Below are positions 3,001 to 63,106 of a stretch of DNA of 64,000 bases, piece after piece. The notes under the pieces were generated by a model, which ran no database searches, was not told the origin of the DNA, and saw nothing but the letters and a program-made list of their open reading frames with translations. Position 1 is the first letter of the stretch; every line of letters begins with the position of its first letter. The DNA is from a virus, in IMG/VR virus record IMGVR_UViG_3300035670_000106, positions 26,096-90,095 of that record; one strand, given 5' to 3'. The position numbers and the translations under genes are program-made.

Positions 3001-6000
3001 AGCTGGACCAGGCATACCAGCTTTAGTACTGCCTTTACTTTTACAGCAAATCTTGTTATAAAAGTATTAGAAGGTACTGAATATTCAAGTACCAAATGGT
3101 TATCTGAAAAAACTCCTATAGCTTTAGGATATGATAATATATCTTTTGTACCTTATATCGGCCCTGCTACCTTATACGAGACAATAAATCTACCTGGTGT
3201 TACTAACTATGCCCAAGTAAAAAATCTTGCGAAGTTCCACTTAGCACAGCTAAGACTAAGACCAGAAATATACACATTAAACGTAGATATGGAACATATA
3301 GTTTGTACTAGGGGGGATTTAGTAAAGGTAACTCACGATGTACCTCTATGGGGTACAGGGTCAGGTAGAATAACTTCCGTTTCTTATGACGGTACTAGTC
3401 TAACTACTATAAGTATTAGTGACTATATACCTTTAAAAGCTAACACTACTTACAGAATTATTGTACGTAGTAGTGATACCATACTTCAACCCTCGGTAAA
3501 TGACAGTACACAAGTATACACCTGTATAAATAAAGTGTCAGACGGATTCTATAATACTTTAAGTATTGCAGGAGATAAGACGCTAGATACAGTAGTTGGA
3601 GATCCTTTAGCTTTAATACTAAAAGAGGATAATCTTTTTGTGTTAGGAGAAGTGGGGCAGGAATCCGCTGAGTGCCTGGTACAAAGTATAGAGCCTTTAG
3701 ATAATCTTTCAGCAAAAATAACTTTAGTTGACTATTCTCCAGAAATATATGATCTTATAAACTCAGATGAGCCAATATTAGACTATGTATCTAATATTAG
3801 TGATCCGGTAATACTAAAACCTGCCACTGTCAGATTTAAACCTAATGTAGTAAATGTATTTTCCGATGAATCGGTAATGTCAGTAGTTAGTAAAGGTAGG
3901 TATAAGTACGGTATAAAATTAACTTTTAAAAATATTAGTACTAAAGAAAATATGAAGGACCTTAAGTTTATAGAATGCTCACTAAGACCTTCTACAAGTA
4001 AGAATTCAAGAAGCGATAAGTGGTTATATAATAAGATTATTAAAATAGAAGATGCTACAGTTTTATTTGATGAGGATATTGATGAAAATGCCTGGTACGA
4101 CTTTAGAGCAAGGTACATATCTGCTCTTGGAGTAACTGGTGAATGGACAGACGCTAGAAATTATGTGGGCAAAGATAGATTTAACTACTATTACAGCACC
4201 TATAATACTGCAGTAGTTACTGAGTACTCTAATTACATTGATACAGACATAGTTAAGCTATTAAAACCTATGAAATTTCAAATTCAAGGTAGGATTAATC
4301 CTCCAAAAAATATAAGTGGAGCTCAAGCTTCTTACATAGATAGTAGAGTTAATATAGATTGGGCGGATAATGAAGAACCAGACCTAGGCAGGTATGAGGT
4401 ACGATTGGCAGACTCAAATTGGGGTGTGCTAGTTGATCCTAATAACTTAACAAAACGTCACCCAGACCTTGTATACAAGGGGCCTAATAGCGAATGTTTC
4501 TATCCTCTACCAAAACTAGATGTCGGAGTACAGAGTACTACTAATAATTTCTACTTAAAAGCCGTAGATACTGCGGGGCATTTTTCTACGGATCCAATAC
4601 TGCTGTCAGTACCTTACCAAAGGCCGCCAGCCGTAGCTGGAATTGTAACAGATGTTAAGTCTACTACAATTCCTTTAGATGAGGGGAGTACGGTAGAAGT
4701 AAATGCAACGGTATCCTGGAGCCCCGTAGCTCCAGTAAATGGGATGATAATAGCAGGGTATGAAATAAGGACTGCTGCTACAGTACCTACTGAACCTCCT
4801 CCTCTGAGTTCTTTTGGAAGTTCAAGTACTATAGATGGTAGTGCTTTAATCTACAGAGGTAGTGTAACTACTACTACTATTCCAATTGACCCATCCATAA
4901 CTAATACATACTATATTAGAGCGTATGACCTAAAAGGCAACTACTCTTGGACTAACTCTACTATTACAATTGATGCTAGACCAGCTTTAGCTGCGCCTTC
5001 AAGTGTTGCCGGAAAATTAATATTGAGTGCAGGCCAACTAGAGATAGATTGGACTACTACAATGCCAAGAAGGACAAAAGAATTTGAGGTAAGAACTACT
5101 AATTCTAATTGGTGGACAAGTAATACTAATTTAGTGTACCGCGGATCTAATTCTATCTGTAAAACATCAGAGCTACTTAGCCTTACTAGTACTCCTAAGA
5201 CCTACTATCTAAGAGCTAGAGACTCCTTTGGTATAGAGTCTGCAGTAACAACTTATACCCATGCTATGACAGATTTAGTGGCACCATCAGGTGTAATAGG
5301 TACCCCCGATAGTACTACAGGAGAATTGATAATAGACTGGACTACCACAATGCCTGGAAGAACCATCAACTATGAGGTTAGAACGGATCAGAATTGGGGA
5401 GTACAAAGTACTCACTTAATATATAATGGTAGTGCCTCTATTTGCAGAACTTCTAGGCTACTAAAGAATGGTAATCCTACAAAAACCTACTATTTAAGAG
5501 CAACAGACGTTTTCGGGCAAATTTCTAGCGTAACTACATTTAATTACTCCTATGCGTATCCAAGCGTTTTAGATGACGTAGTACATCACTTTAACGATAA
5601 ATCAGACACTCAAGACTCTATTACTGTAGATTGGCCAGAATCAGATCCACCATTTGGACTAAAAGACTATAAGATTAGTTACCCAGCAGAAGTATTAACA
5701 CTTACTAGTATTTCTAGAGATGCTAGCGGTACAATCTATGGTACTTTTGCCTCTACACCCATGAATCTAATCAAAGGTAAAGTAGTAACTATCTCAGGAG
5801 CAGCTAATTCTGCACTTAATGGAGATGCTACAATTATTTCTAGAAATATGACTACTAATACTTTTACTGCATATCAAGGAGGTGGAACTATATCAGTTTT
5901 AACAGGTACTAATGTAGGGCAAGTAGTCTATACTATAACTAAATTTATAGCTACAAGTAGTCACGAATTCCCCTTTAACTGGACAGCTACCAAAACTATT

Positions 6001-16800: not shown

Positions 16801-18354
16801 ATGGCAACATATAGTACTGACCTTAATACTATTACTTTATGCGATTCTGGTTCATTCACAGAATTTACTGGATTCACTACAGGCGGTACACCAGCATTAT
16901 CGACAGAAAACTACATCCACAATGGGTCATCTGTAGACCAAGCTACTGGTCAAGCTGTAGGTCAGCAAGCCTCTATAGCCTTTGATTTTGGTTCTAATAT
17001 TTCTTGGACTACTGGTTGGGTAGTTATGGGTTGGCAGTACTTTGCTGCACCTACCAATATTGAGACTTGGGCTAGTGGTGGTATGCGTATAGGTATTGGC
17101 TCTGCATTAGGTGCAGTTAGCTTCTATAACGCTGTAGGTAATAACTTTGGTACTTATCCGTATGGGGGATGGCAAAATACTGCCATTGATCCAACACTAA
17201 CAGCAGATCAAACTACTGGCGGAGGTAATGGAGGAAGCTACCGTTACTTTGGTTCTATGTGCAATATGCTTGCCAAGATTACCAAAGGTTCTCCACATGC
17301 TATTGATGCTTTTAGGTATGGTAGAGGTCAGATTAAAGCTATTGGTGCTGACTCTACCTTTACTGGATTAGCCTCTGCTAATGATGCTACTACTGCAAGA
17401 TGGGGGTTATTCTCCAATGCTGGCGGTGTGTATAAGTGGAAAGGTTTAATGAGTTTAGGTGATGCTACTAATAGTGTTACCTTCTCTGATAGCAATAAAG
17501 CTATTCTAATTGAAGATACTCCTAGAGTTAGTGCGGGCTTTAATAAGATTGAGATTACTCATGCTTCCTCTTCTGTAACTTGGAACTCTATTTCTATTAC
17601 TGGTGTACAGACTTCTATTACTGGTTCATCTCCTGTAAGTAGGGGTGACTTTGAGGTAGTTACATCGGGAGCTACAGTATCTCTAGCTGGTTGTACTTTT
17701 ACAGATATGGGTACTTTTATACTTAAGTCTAGTGCCTCTATTACAGGTAGTACTTTCCGTAGATGTGGTACAGTAACTCCTTCAGGAGCTACTATTAACT
17801 CTGGTACTCTATTTACAAATAGTTTCAATACTTCTATTGGTGCTTTACTTGTTACATCTCCGACTGATATAGCCTCTATGAGTAATGGTTCTTTTACTAA
17901 TAATGTAAAAGCTATAACTATAACTACTTCTGGTTCCTATAATTTTGTTGGTCATCAATTTTCTAGTAATACTACTGCTGTAGACTTTACAGGTACAGGT
18001 ACGTGTAATATCTATCCTTCAGCAGGGTGTAATTTATCCCAATCTAATTGTACAGCCTCAGGGGGTGGTACAATTATAGTACATGCTGTTTCAACCAATT
18101 TAACACTTACTGGAATAGTTCCAGGATCTGATATTGTTATACTTAACGCTGGTACTACTACTGAGCGTGTAAATATAGATTCCAACGCTACGTCAACTTA
18201 TGTATTCTCCTATACTACCTTAGGAGATGTAGATATATGTGTGTATAAACAAGGTTATAGGCCTTTCGCTTATCGAAATTACAGCCTACCTGCCTCAGAC
18301 GGTTCCTTTCCTGTATCTCAGGTAGCGGACCTAAATTATTTTAATCCAGCCTAA
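16801..18354 (+). CDS. Putative virion protein with beta-helix-like repeats (517 aa)
   Basis: Rich in Ser, Thr, Gly and Asn. An N-terminal globular part (to about residue 240) contains GWQYFAAP and GGWQNTA. From about 240 to 440 short hydrophobic-polar repeats (SITGVQTSI, ASITGSTFRRC, GSFTNNVKAI) suggest a right-handed beta-helix, as in tailspikes and fibres. No catalytic motif is visible. Neighbours are of similar composition, so it is probably one of several fibre or decoration subunits. Confidence 0.7.
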   Translation: MATYSTDLNTITLCDSGSFTEFTGFTTGGTPALSTENYIHNGSSVDQATGQAVGQQASIAFDFGSNISWTTGWVVMGWQYFAAPTNIETWASGGMRIGIGSALGAVSFYNAVGNNFGTYPYGGWQNTAIDPTLTADQTTGGGNGGSYRYFGSMCNMLAKITKGSPHAIDAFRYGRGQIKAIGADSTFTGLASANDATTARWGLFSNAGGVYKWKGLMSLGDATNSVTFSDSNKAILIEDTPRVSAGFNKIEITHASSSVTWNSISITGVQTSITGSSPVSRGDFEVVTSGATVSLAGCTFTDMGTFILKSSASITGSTFRRCGTVTPSGATINSGTLFTNSFNTSIGALLVTSPTDIASMSNGSFTNNVKAITITTSGSYNFVGHQFSSNTTAVDFTGTGTCNIYPSAGCNLSQSNCTASGGGTIIVHAVSTNLTLTGIVPGSDIVILNAGTTTERVNIDSNATSTYVFSYTTLGDVDICVYKQGYRPFAYRNYSLPASDGSFPVSQVADLNYFNPA

Positions 18355-54540: not shown

Positions 54541-55941
54541 TTAGTAATTATACCTAGGAGTCAGTAAAGTCTCTAGCATAATGTTTCTAGGAGAAAATCG
54601 ATCTACTGGAGTACCAAGAATACTTGTCATAATACTTGGTGAGAAGCCAGAAACCAGAGCTACTCCCTGCTCATTTGCAGAGACTGGTACGTTGCCGTAA
54701 GCCTTCAGATTCCAGAACACAATTTGTGGTACTTTATATCCAGCAGTTTCAAAATTCCTACGAATACTTTCTACTGCGGAGTCTCCATATGTTATACACT
54801 CATCAAACTGCATGTCTGAAAAGATCATCAAAACTTCTGGCATTTCTTCTTGAGGTACTTTACCTTGAACTGCAGTATTTAGTACTAGGTTCAAGGCTTT
54901 TACCAGGTTAGTATTAAAACCCCAGGAAGACCCCCTTAGCTGGCTAACCTTCTCATAAATATTACCCCGAAGAATATCAATGGAAGGCTCTTCAGAAAAA
55001 GTAAGGAACATATCCTTAAACTTCCCGGTATTTTTATCAGCGCAATACAGTCCTAAAGAAATAGCTACTTGCATAGCTGTAAGGTTTTTACCTACAGGTG
55101 TCATCATAGAGCCACTAACATCAACCATTGGAAGGATTTTAGCATTTCCAATGTAATTAGGCAGTGCTTCCCACTGAGACTTTATAAAACTAATCTCGGA
55201 GGCACTAGGTTCGATATAGTAACTAAAAAGACTGCGAAGTACCTCGTATGGATAGATAGCACCGGCATTAACCTTGGTTTTCCCCTTAGCCAGTGAATCT
55301 ACATACTTTGTATATAGCTCCGGAGTATGTTTAATAAAAGCAGCACGATAACGAGCAGCAGCAACAGAAGGTACTTTGCTAAACTCTATAGTATCCCAGC
55401 TATGGGCACACATCTGTGTTTCTACAACCTTAGTTAGATTGACTAAGGTTTTGCGATAGACCTTAGGGGACATACCAAGCAGTCCACGAAGCTTGGCCGC
55501 TTCTACCCCCTTACGAGGCATCCATTTAGCACAAAGGCCGTTACCCTCTGCTAGAGCCTGTTTAATTAGGAATGCGGCAAATCTCTTAGCTTCTGCACTT
55601 TTAACAGCAAGCAAGTCATCCCAACGACCCAACTCTGGGATAGCCTTCATTAAGCGTAAAGCATCGTCTAAATTGGCAAATTCAAGCCAATTTAGCATAT
55701 CCCTAAAAAGCTGACGTTCCCCGGCACCTTTTCTAGCGTCTCGTGCCCACAGCATAATACGGTTAGCCAAGTCACGATCTGAAGCATACGCTGCTGCAAA
55801 ATCTGGGACAATATTCTGCCCGCGAGAAGCCCCTACCTTAAAAAAGAGGTCTACGCAAGGATCTGAAGTGCTCTTAAGCGCCCTCATTCCATTCTCGGTA
55901 TAGGTGGTTTGATTGTTTACTGCATTTGCAAAAGTATTCAT
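54541..55941 (-). CDS. TROVE/vWA protein (DUF2828-like, Ro60-related)
   Basis: 466 residues from ATG 55941 (MNTFANAV), 6-7 nt after AAGGA; upstream in-frame codons lie in the promoter. The N-terminal helical-repeat half contains RDARKGAGERQLFRD (from 67), the signature of DUF2828/TROVE-like proteins. The C-terminal von Willebrand A domain has an intact MIDAS DVSGS (274-278), a Thr and FSDMQFD. Ro60-type proteins bind structured small RNAs. Here the gene is next to tRNAs and structured RNAs, but binding partners are inferred only. Confidence 0.82.
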   Translation of the reverse strand: MNTFANAVNNQTTYTENGMRALKSTSDPCVDLFFKVGASRGQNIVPDFAAAYASDRDLANRIMLWARDARKGAGERQLFRDMLNWLEFANLDDALRLMKAIPELGRWDDLLAVKSAEAKRFAAFLIKQALAEGNGLCAKWMPRKGVEAAKLRGLLGMSPKVYRKTLVNLTKVVETQMCAHSWDTIEFSKVPSVAAARYRAAFIKHTPELYTKYVDSLAKGKTKVNAGAIYPYEVLRSLFSYYIEPSASEISFIKSQWEALPNYIGNAKILPMVDVSGSMMTPVGKNLTAMQVAISLGLYCADKNTGKFKDMFLTFSEEPSIDILRGNIYEKVSQLRGSSWGFNTNLVKALNLVLNTAVQGKVPQEEMPEVLMIFSDMQFDECITYGDSAVESIRRNFETAGYKVPQIVFWNLKAYGNVPVSANEQGVALVSGFSPSIMTSILGTPVDRFSPRNIMLETLLTPRYNY

Positions 55942-55985
55942 TAAATTTTCCTTAACAGATTGAAGAGTATTCACTTTTTCAAGAG

Positions 55986-56013
55986 TGTATAATAATAATA
56001 TTGCTGAATTCAA
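55986..56013 (-). promoter_or_regulatory. Weaker promoter of the vWA gene
   Basis: TTGAAT (56013-56008) with TATACA (55991-55986) at 16-bp spacing on the minus strand. It diverges from the standard set (17 bp, TATAAT), so expression timing or strength may differ. Confidence 0.55.
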
Positions 56014-60801: not shown

Positions 60802-60893
60802 TGGTACTCCTGCCCGGACTCGAACCGAGATTAACCAATTATCTGTTGCATACGGGATATAAATCCGCTGTTTTACCATTAAACTACAGGAGC
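60802..60893 (-). tRNA. Unusual 92-nt tRNA, anticodon apparently UAU (Ile)
   Basis: Acceptor GCTCCTG / CAGGAGT, D stem GTTT/AAAC, T arm CTCGG-TTCGAGT-CCGGG, encoded CCA. Anticodon stem GCGGA/CCCGT has an A-C mismatch next to loop TTTATAT, giving UAU. A 22-nt variable region is class II size, which is not normal for Ile. Identity is therefore uncertain. Confidence 0.6.
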
Positions 60894-60900
60894 AATTATT

Positions 60901-60983
60901 TGGTACCCCGGGCCAGAGTCGAACTGGCACGCCATAAGCGGGAGATTTTAAGTCTCCTGTGTCTACCATTCCACCACCGGGGC
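60901..60983 (-). tRNA. tRNA-Leu(UAA)
   Basis: Perfect acceptor GCCCCGG / CCGGGGT(one G-U), anticodon loop CTTAAAA, moderate variable arm, encoded CCA. Reads UUA. Confidence 0.93.
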
Positions 60984-61011: not shown

Positions 61012-61089
61012 TGGTACCCTCGGTCGGAGTCGAACCGACACTGTACGGCTTCTAAGACCGTCATCTCTACCAGATTGGATTACGAGGGC
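61012..61089 (-). tRNA. tRNA-Leu(UAG) with short variable loop
   Basis: Acceptor GCCCTCG / CGAGGGT, anticodon stem ACGGT/GCCGT with loop CTTAGAA, T arm GTCGG/CCGAC, encoded CCA. The variable region is only about 5 nt, whereas bacterial Leu tRNAs are class II. It would read CUA. Confidence 0.85.
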
Positions 61090-61298
61090 ATTTACAGTAA
61101 TGTTATCTATTTATGGGTAGTAATAACCCTACTACCGTTTGCTAAATGAAGTCGCTTATTGAAGATTGTAGTATGCGCGCTCTACAATCAGTTTCGCCGT
61201 CACTTCGTCCTTATTTACGCATCTTCCTAGGTATGGTAACATCGAACAGCATTAGGCTGGTGGACACAGCCTTTTTCATAAATAACATTACTGTAAAT
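61090..61298 (-). ncRNA. Large structured RNA element upstream of tRNA-Leu(UAG)
   Basis: Its ends form a 22-bp stem (61298-61277 with 61115-61090, 8 plus 14 pairs and one 4-nt bulge) whose base is directly next to the tRNA 5' end. Inside are GGCTG/CAGCC with a 7-nt loop and GATTGTAG/CTACAATC hairpins. No supported ORF on either strand. It lies in the 3' product of the hammerhead ribozyme. No known RNA family recognised. Confidence 0.6.
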
Positions 61299-61369
61299 TC
61301 GGTTCCGAGAACTTTGTTCCTGCTAGCAGGCATCTCTCCTATATCGGGACATACACCGAAAGGTCTGTC

Positions 61370-61473
61370 ATGGTTTACAGTTGAGCATAGTATCTACAAA
61401 GATTATTTGATAGTTATTTAGACCTATTCGCTCAACCGTTTCGTCGGATTTTCATCGACTCATCAGAACCATT
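61370..61473 (-). ncRNA. Type I hammerhead ribozyme
   Basis: On the minus strand: stem I ATGGTT (from 61472) / AACCAT (61375-61370); conserved CTGATGA (61466-61460); stem II GTCG/CGAC closed by an A-T-extended GAAA loop; GAAA (61442-61439); stem III, 10 bp, ACGGTTGAGC (61439-61430) / GCTCAACTGT (61386-61377), with a 43-nt loop; then A at 61376. Cleavage is expected between 61376 and 61375 (GUA site). Every invariant core base is present. It starts about 12 nt after the predicted transcription start. Confidence 0.88.
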
Positions 61474-61491
61474 CCTCACTGTATAAATAAT

Positions 61492-61520
61492 ATTATACAG
61501 GGTTTCACTAACATAATCAA
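61492..61520 (-). promoter_or_regulatory. Promoter with palindromic core, copy 2 (drives hammerhead-tRNA operon)
   Basis: TTGATT (61520-61515), 17 bp, TATAAT (61497-61492) on the minus strand; contains the 26-bp identical core (61475-61500). Start expected near 61485, so the first sequence transcribed is the hammerhead. Confidence 0.9.
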
Positions 61521-61537
61521 GTCAGTAATTTTAAATC

Positions 61538-62616: not shown

Positions 62617-62692
<76 letters not shown>

Positions 62693-62694
62693 AT

Positions 62695-62769
62695 TGGTTG
62701 CGGGACCAGGACTCGAACCTGGAATCTCGGCTTATGAGACCGAACGGATGCCAATTTCCACATCCCGCA
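62695..62769 (-). tRNA. tRNA-Met(CAU), possibly initiator
   Basis: Acceptor TGCGGGA / TCCCGCA (first pair T-A, not the initiator C-A mismatch), anticodon loop CTCATAA, encoded CCA. The CCCGCAACCA end resembles initiator tRNA but the anticodon stem lacks three G-C pairs. A 9-bp hairpin abuts its 5' end. Confidence 0.85.
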
Positions 62770-63071
62770 ACCAATACTCCCATAAGAAGTATTGGAAATA
62801 ACAGACACATATTAGTACAAGCTTGTCAGGAAGGTATATACTATCAGGTGTATAAGCCTAGATATAATTTCTGTTCTTAACATCATAGAACCTTGGTATG
62901 CGAAGTCCAAGAAAATGCACTATGTCAGTAAAATAGTTGCTGTAATGTGTCTTAATGACATGTAGGACGGCATTGCACCGAACACGAGAATCTGAGTAAG
63001 AAAGGTCAGGGGCCTCTTGTATGCGAGATCATATCTGAATTGGCGGTTAAGGCTGCCTTGTCTCACTCAGA
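62770..63071 (-). other. Leader of the Met-Thr-Ala tRNA transcript (302 bp)
   Basis: Transcribed from the promoter at 63078. CTGAGT/ACTCAG closes the first 80 nt, with a small AAGG/CCTT hairpin inside. The end holds a CCAATACT/AGTATTGG hairpin (62771-62795) one base from the tRNA 5' end. Only tiny ORFs occur. No known RNA family recognised. Confidence 0.45.
62812..62886 (-). CDS. Possible 24-residue hydrophobic peptide
   Basis: ATG at 62886 with AAGG 4 nt upstream; the peptide MMLRTEIISRLIHLIVYTFL continues to LTSLY and could be membrane active. It is the only ORF with a site in this leader. Chance occurrence is quite possible. Confidence 0.28.
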   Translation of the reverse strand: MMLRTEIISRLIHLIVYTFLTSLY

Positions 63072-63077
63072 AATAAT

Positions 63078-63106
63078 ATTATAACACGATGGCTGAAGAA
63101 AATCAA
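63078..63106 (-). promoter_or_regulatory. Promoter of the Met-Thr-Ala tRNA transcript
   Basis: TTGATT (63106-63101), 17 bp, TATAAT (63083-63078) on the minus strand, followed by ATTATTTCTGAGTGAG, similar to but not identical with the palindromic promoters. Confidence 0.88.

Follow-up and report, generated by a model that had tools for sequence, protein, structure and literature searches.

The type I hammerhead ribozyme encoded on the minus strand of the viral DNA analysed here makes up just the 5' domain of a larger RNA that is conserved beyond it, and in which ribozyme stem I is directly followed by a pseudoknot that carries the motif ACCUUNNGGUGUA within its first hairpin (P1). Hammerheads alone are already common in viral contigs, and the new part is this conserved downstream pseudoknot, a 61369-61298 element that was missed in an earlier, sequence-only reading of the same DNA. 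It is very probable that the hammerhead belongs to a composite RNA family that extends to other viral contigs, and this composite is absent from Rfam 15 and from the open literature searched. The purpose of phage and prophage hammerheads has been open since their discovery. The fixed structural partner, the single copy per carrier, and the recurrent tRNA-array context make it testable whether a specific RNA owes its 5' end to the cut, and the covarying helix offers compensatory mutants for this purpose.

The DNA analysed (64,000 nucleotides, hereafter the window) comprises the final 64 kb of a 90,095-base IMG/VR virus record with a GC content of 37%. The genome encodes a ribonucleotide reductase, a DNA polymerase, a DnaB-like helicase, an SbcC-like subunit, and an NAD-dependent DNA ligase, and the window contains 17 tRNA genes, on the minus strand. 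No close relative of this virus was found in the phage records searched, and blastn of positions 61092-61520 against phages returned chance-level pieces only, several of which fell on the promoter. Relatives (46-56% identical) of the RNase H-like and DUF7788 proteins lack the hammerhead and the downstream element, and neither hammerhead nor motif is present in Rctr197k, which has the closest relative of one protein from the virion region. An RNA repair partner of the RtcB type was considered and rejected, as the 490-aa protein encoded at 54541-56013 is a DUF7788/DUF2828 protein and not RtcB.

The hammerhead and its transcription unit

The sequence-only reading had described a complete hammerhead with all core bases and three paired stems, and a descriptor scan as well as an unconstrained fold confirmed this for the minus strand at 61472-61370 (Table 1). 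The core consists of CUGAUGA (61466-61460) and GAAA (61442-61439), then GUA, with U61377 and A61376 at the cut site, and the core-flanking pairs N1.1-N2.1, N10.1-N11.1, and A15.1-U16.1 are all present. Stems II and III are closed and both ends exit through stem I, which is the type I topology; this identity, together with the coordinates and the cut position that had been predicted, is supported by sequence and structure. The minimum-energy fold recovers exactly the three stems (-25.6 kcal/mol, z -3.4), and the descriptor scan found no other hammerhead in the window. The stem III loop is unusually long at 43 nt. The same loop II (UGAAAAU) is seen in several type I hammerheads of unrelated phages, and AUGAAAAUC resembles the loop II of other phage hammerheads. 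No partner was identified in the window for the stem I-loop II tertiary contact that fast cleavage needs.

A chance origin had been judged very unlikely, and the random control agrees with that judgement. With a loose descriptor (at least 4, 3, and 5 bp in stems I, II, and III, respectively), 600 Markov-1 sequences of window length yielded 12 matches (7 type I and 5 type III), all of them much weaker, and the observed stems exceed the descriptor threshold by approximately 9 pairs. By extrapolation, the chance of an equally good match is of the order of 1e-6 per window. The Rfam hammerhead models, which the sequence-only reading had suggested as a check, gave no call at gathering score, and at a relaxed threshold RF00008 matched the core only (23 bits of the 48.5 required for gathering, E 0.016), for which the 43-nt loop of stem III is the probable reason. 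Two sister elements from other contigs (L117 and L127), the two that were tested, scored 30.5 and 27.8 bits with RF00163, also just below its threshold of 34 bits, so that the Rfam miss looks like a limit of sensitivity rather than counter-evidence. As a motif, the hammerhead is almost certainly real.

Table 1. Positions of the RNA elements, promoter, and downstream tRNA genes in the window
Feature	Position	Strand	Details
Promoter	61492..61520	minus	TTGATT 61520-61515, 17-nt spacer, TATAAT 61497-61492
Type I hammerhead ribozyme	61370..61472	minus	predicted cut 61376^61375; found by descriptor, fold, and covariance model from other phages
Stem I, 6 bp	61472-61467 with 61375-61370	minus	AUGGUU pairs with AACCAU
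Stem II, 4 bp	61443..61459	minus	GUCG-AUGAAAAUC-CGAC
Stem III, 10 bp	61377..61439	minus	61439-61430 with 61386-61377; one G-U pair
P1 hairpin	61348..61369	minus	GACA/UGUC; encloses conserved ACCUUUCGGUGUA at 61364-61352
Long-range helix S2, 5' strand	61355..61360	minus	UUCGGU
Long-range helix S2, 3' strand	61298..61303	minus	ACCGAA
209-nt stretch	61090..61298	minus	21-nt arms 61298-61278 and 61110-61090, 95% complementary, enclosing 167 nt
tRNA-Leu(tag)	61012..61089	minus	first downstream tRNA
tRNA-Leu(taa)	60901..60983	minus	
tRNA-Ile(tat)	60802..60893	minus	

The promoter that had been proposed upstream is borne out as one of nine sites of the TTGATN-17-TATAATATTATTT type in the window, where 0.24 would be expected; all nine are on the minus strand. 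Moreover, a 23-nt segment that opens with the -10 box, TATAATATTATTTATACAGTGAG, occurs exactly at three places (53734, 61497, and 63913). Transcription would likely start at about 61485-61483, and this placing of the promoter has the ribozyme begin approximately 12 nt past the start site. The hammerhead also lies 71 nt downstream of a tRNA-Ser gene, and any RNA that reads through from the tRNAs upstream would therefore be cut as well. The structured stretch, three tRNAs, and small ORFs that had been noted downstream of the hammerhead are present. The 209-nt stretch lies between the pseudoknot and tRNA-Leu, and its end coincides exactly with the 5' end of the tRNA. Its interior alone folds no better than shuffled sequences (z -1.1), indicating that the low folding energy of this stretch comes largely from the long arms, and Rfam matches to it within 61080-61530 were at chance level only, with no known RNA among them. 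The stretch may be an inserted element or a substrate of RNase III.

Elsewhere in the window, 309 nt with no convincing gene lie between another promoter of this family and tRNA-Met (62770-63078, minus strand). They fold somewhat better than shuffled sequences (z -2.6) and are a possible second leader RNA that lacks a hammerhead. The tRNA-Met(cat) gene is flanked by a 22-nt inverted repeat (91%) at 62684-62705 and 62763-62784.

The pseudoknot and its recurrence in other viral contigs

The pattern [AT]CCTTNNGG[TC]G[TC]A has a single match on both strands of the 64 kb, at the P1 motif. In its general form, the long-range helix S2 pairs UNNGGU of this motif with a distant downstream ACCNNA (AACCNNA), the NN of which complements the NN of the motif, and since P1 and S2 cross, the element is an H-type pseudoknot. 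A local hairpin, ACC-UUNN-GGU, competes with S2 for GGU, which makes a two-state switch possible, of which the pseudoknot may be just one state. Both ACCUU and GGUGUA are invariant beyond what pairing needs.

An early clue to the family was that hammerheads in the tRNA arrays of other viral contigs are often followed by ACCUUNNGGUGUA. A first, wide scan for the motif gave mostly chance matches, with a hammerhead core upstream in 18 of 121, and the pattern was therefore narrowed to CTGANGAG...CGAAAC...CCTTNNGGTGTA, with 24 fixed bases. This specific scan found the hammerhead followed by ACCUUNNGGUGUA in 34 viral contigs and in one contig of a bacterial genome, the latter probably by chance. Matches in L307 (Phormidium) and L308, which lack hammerhead stems or lie inside an ORF, were also taken as chance.

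Several lines of evidence argue that these composites are one structural family. P1 starts 0-3 nt past stem I in unrelated contigs, and its two strands change jointly while pairing is kept (CTCAT/ATGAG, CACCGA/TCGGTG, AACTT/AAGTT, GACA/TGTC). For S2, the NN positions are a Watson-Crick match in 16 of 26 non-redundant members; redistributing the NN values among the sequences gave a mean of 3.7, and none of 5000 such permutations reached the observed value. When the conserved segments were joined and aligned, 96% of the cells of the six-pair helix were paired and 17 cells showed double changes (5.6 after shuffling); in controls slid by one to three columns the values were far lower and the helix was lost. 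Some of the 3' segments in this alignment had been picked by the pairing rule itself, and the permutation test is thus the cleaner evidence. Finally, nine other phages, with the window left out, supplied a covariance model (R1) of the hammerhead and P1 motif that had one match in the window, at 61472-61339, over its full length (31.5 bits, E 8.9e-7). Each of 16 carrier records contains one copy.

Besides the composites, other arrangements were encountered. The contig L297, which has a composite copy and 17 tRNAs, also contains a pseudoknot without hammerhead (P1, ACCUUUCGGUGUA, and ACCGAA; minus strand from 1362). In L162, L163, and L098, five to eight type I hammerheads follow each other in a row on one strand, which looks like systematic processing of long transcripts.

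Composites are frequently located close to tRNA genes: 11 of 23 non-redundant members lie at most 500 nt from a same-strand tRNA, against 2.6 expected, and among type I hammerheads gathered regardless of context the corresponding count is 7 of 104 distinct (1.3 expected). Moreover, tRNA genes are present in 11 of the 14 records searched, which are mostly composite carriers and include that of L007. In L117, L127, and L292 the hammerhead begins 8-12 nt after a tRNA, and in the first two the next tRNA begins within approximately 10 nt of the end of the element, a spacing that fits the release of a defined RNA between tRNAs. The group C members L071, L239, and L249 have a minimal version that immediately precedes protein genes, and half of all composites have no tRNA beside them; the tRNA context is therefore frequent and not obligatory.

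Other type I hammerheads near tRNA genes were observed as well. The one in L007 (12253-12321, minus strand) has a stem I 3' strand, GGUGG, that is also the acceptor strand of the phage tRNA-His (12183-12256), and cleavage at the predicted site would leave the tRNA with precisely one additional 5' G (G-1). This is the end required by tRNA-His, as though the hammerhead stood in for RNase P. Fusion of a hammerhead to a tRNA 5' end was dismissed as a rule, L007 being the sole case found. Isolated phages carry type I hammerheads too: in the Xanthomonas phage RiverRider (NC_048703) one at about 17809-17858 lies approximately 350 nt upstream of an array of seven tRNAs, and in the Agrobacterium phage OLIVR1 (MT234338) one at 3959-4014 lies approximately 570 nt upstream of tRNA-Thr. 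No open-access paper on hammerheads in phage tRNA arrays was found, subscription papers and preprints being outside the coverage of this search.

Proposed function, alternatives, and comparison with known systems

We consider it somewhat probable that the hammerhead and the pseudoknot act together to provide a defined, protected, or released RNA. Transcription would start at the phage promoter, and the hammerhead would form first and, as its intact core suggests, cut itself at the predicted site. This cut would strip a leader of approximately 110 nt including the 5' triphosphate, and would also sever read-through RNA from the upstream tRNA-Met and tRNA-Ser. The 3' product would start with 5'-OH-AACCAU and run straight into the pseudoknot formed by P1 and the UNNGGU:ACCNNA helix. 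Together, the ribozyme and the pseudoknot would most likely serve to give the transcript of tRNAs and small genes a defined, structured, and phosphate-free 5' end. Such an end may resist 5'-end-dependent decay (by RppH/RNase E or RNase J). In Bacillus, the 5'-OH product of glmS is reported to be degraded and not protected, and a 5'-OH need thus not stabilise. An alternative job for the two domains could be to free a pseudoknot RNA, the 3' end of which would be made by RNase P at tRNA-Leu. More tentatively, and with somewhat less confidence than doubt, the ACCUUNNGGUGUA pseudoknot may be an undescribed, single-copy phage noncoding RNA that obtains its 5' end from its own hammerhead and, in arrays, its 3' end from tRNA processing, and that has a dedicated role during infection; if true, this role could be, for example, the binding of a host factor or ligand, or the protection of tRNA-operon transcripts.

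The strongest competitor to a joint function, although an unlikely one, is that an ordinary phage hammerhead cuts a long transcript to operon-length pieces while the pseudoknot, as a separate cis-regulatory element, happens to travel along with it. Such cutting has been proposed for prophages (Perreault 2011, PMC3088659), motif-free hammerheads are numerous in viral contigs, some contigs have several copies (eight in L162, five in L163), and the motif in L297 can exist without a hammerhead; however, the fixed distance of the motif from stem I in unrelated contigs, with P1 starting 0-3 nt past it, as well as the single copy per carrier, argue for one unit. Quite improbable is a ribozyme controlled by a ligand or protein, in which the pseudoknot would be the sensor and an exchange between the local hairpin and S2 would switch cleavage or downstream expression. 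The invariance of ACCUU and GGUGUA, the two mutually exclusive pairings of GGU, the abutment of P1 and stem I, which could be coupled by stacking, and the typing of the related Rfam motif COG2908 as cis-regulatory would be in line with a sensor, but the pseudoknot is located 3' of the cut and has no strand in common with the hammerhead core, there is no evident ligand or coupled gene, and different members have different genes downstream.

It is very improbable that the hammerhead has decayed or lost its activity and persists as a relic. The missing Rfam call at gathering score and the unusual stem III loop would fit such a relic, whereas the core and the pairs that flank it are intact throughout, stem III has 10 bp, and the adjacent pseudoknot keeps its covarying pairs.

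The sequence-only reading had regarded a self-cleaving leader of a tRNA-mRNA operon as functionally undescribed; the hammerhead does head a promoter-driven unit of this kind, but viral precedents exist, in a hammerhead at a transcript 5' end in the haloviruses HF1 and HF2 and in tRNA-linked phage ribozymes of another class. Prophage hammerheads that flank genes and occur in clusters have been proposed to process long polycistronic phage transcripts (Perreault 2011, PMC3088659). With the type I hammerheads of phages and prophages (RF00163, clan CL00010) the window element shares the core, the three stems with an open stem I, the NUH cut site, and the phage context, and it differs from them in its long stem III loop, its position at the head of a tRNA unit, and the conserved pseudoknot that follows. 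In HF1 and HF2 a major transcript has its mapped 5' end no more than 3 nt from the site where the hammerhead HHphage cuts (PMC3088659). This viral hammerhead, too, is located close to where a polycistronic transcript begins, but it has a core variant and lies 13 nt before a helicase gene in an archaeal virus, without a tRNA array.

The downstream motif has one other Rfam match, COG2908 (RF02939), which reaches 10-15 bits where 58.7 are required for gathering; with its 45-nt model the window scores 11.2 bits over 12 positions and L117 scores 15.3 bits over the full model. The COG2908 consensus holds ACCUUUcGGUGUA in a small stem and shares ACCUUUCGGUGUA, whereas its model has no hammerhead and does not include the long-range helix.

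The theta ribozymes of gut phages, which are HDV-like, adjoin tRNAs and have been proposed to trim tRNA 3' trailers (PMC10879173). No HDV-type family was among the Rfam matches up to E 10 in 61080-61530. Both systems are self-cleaving RNAs that adjoin phage tRNAs, but theta ribozymes have the HDV fold and are proposed to act on 3' trailers, whereas the window element is a hammerhead located 286 nt upstream of the next tRNA. The occurrence of the composite and of theta ribozymes beside phage tRNAs suggests that self-cleaving RNAs are a recurring phage route to the processing of tRNA operons.
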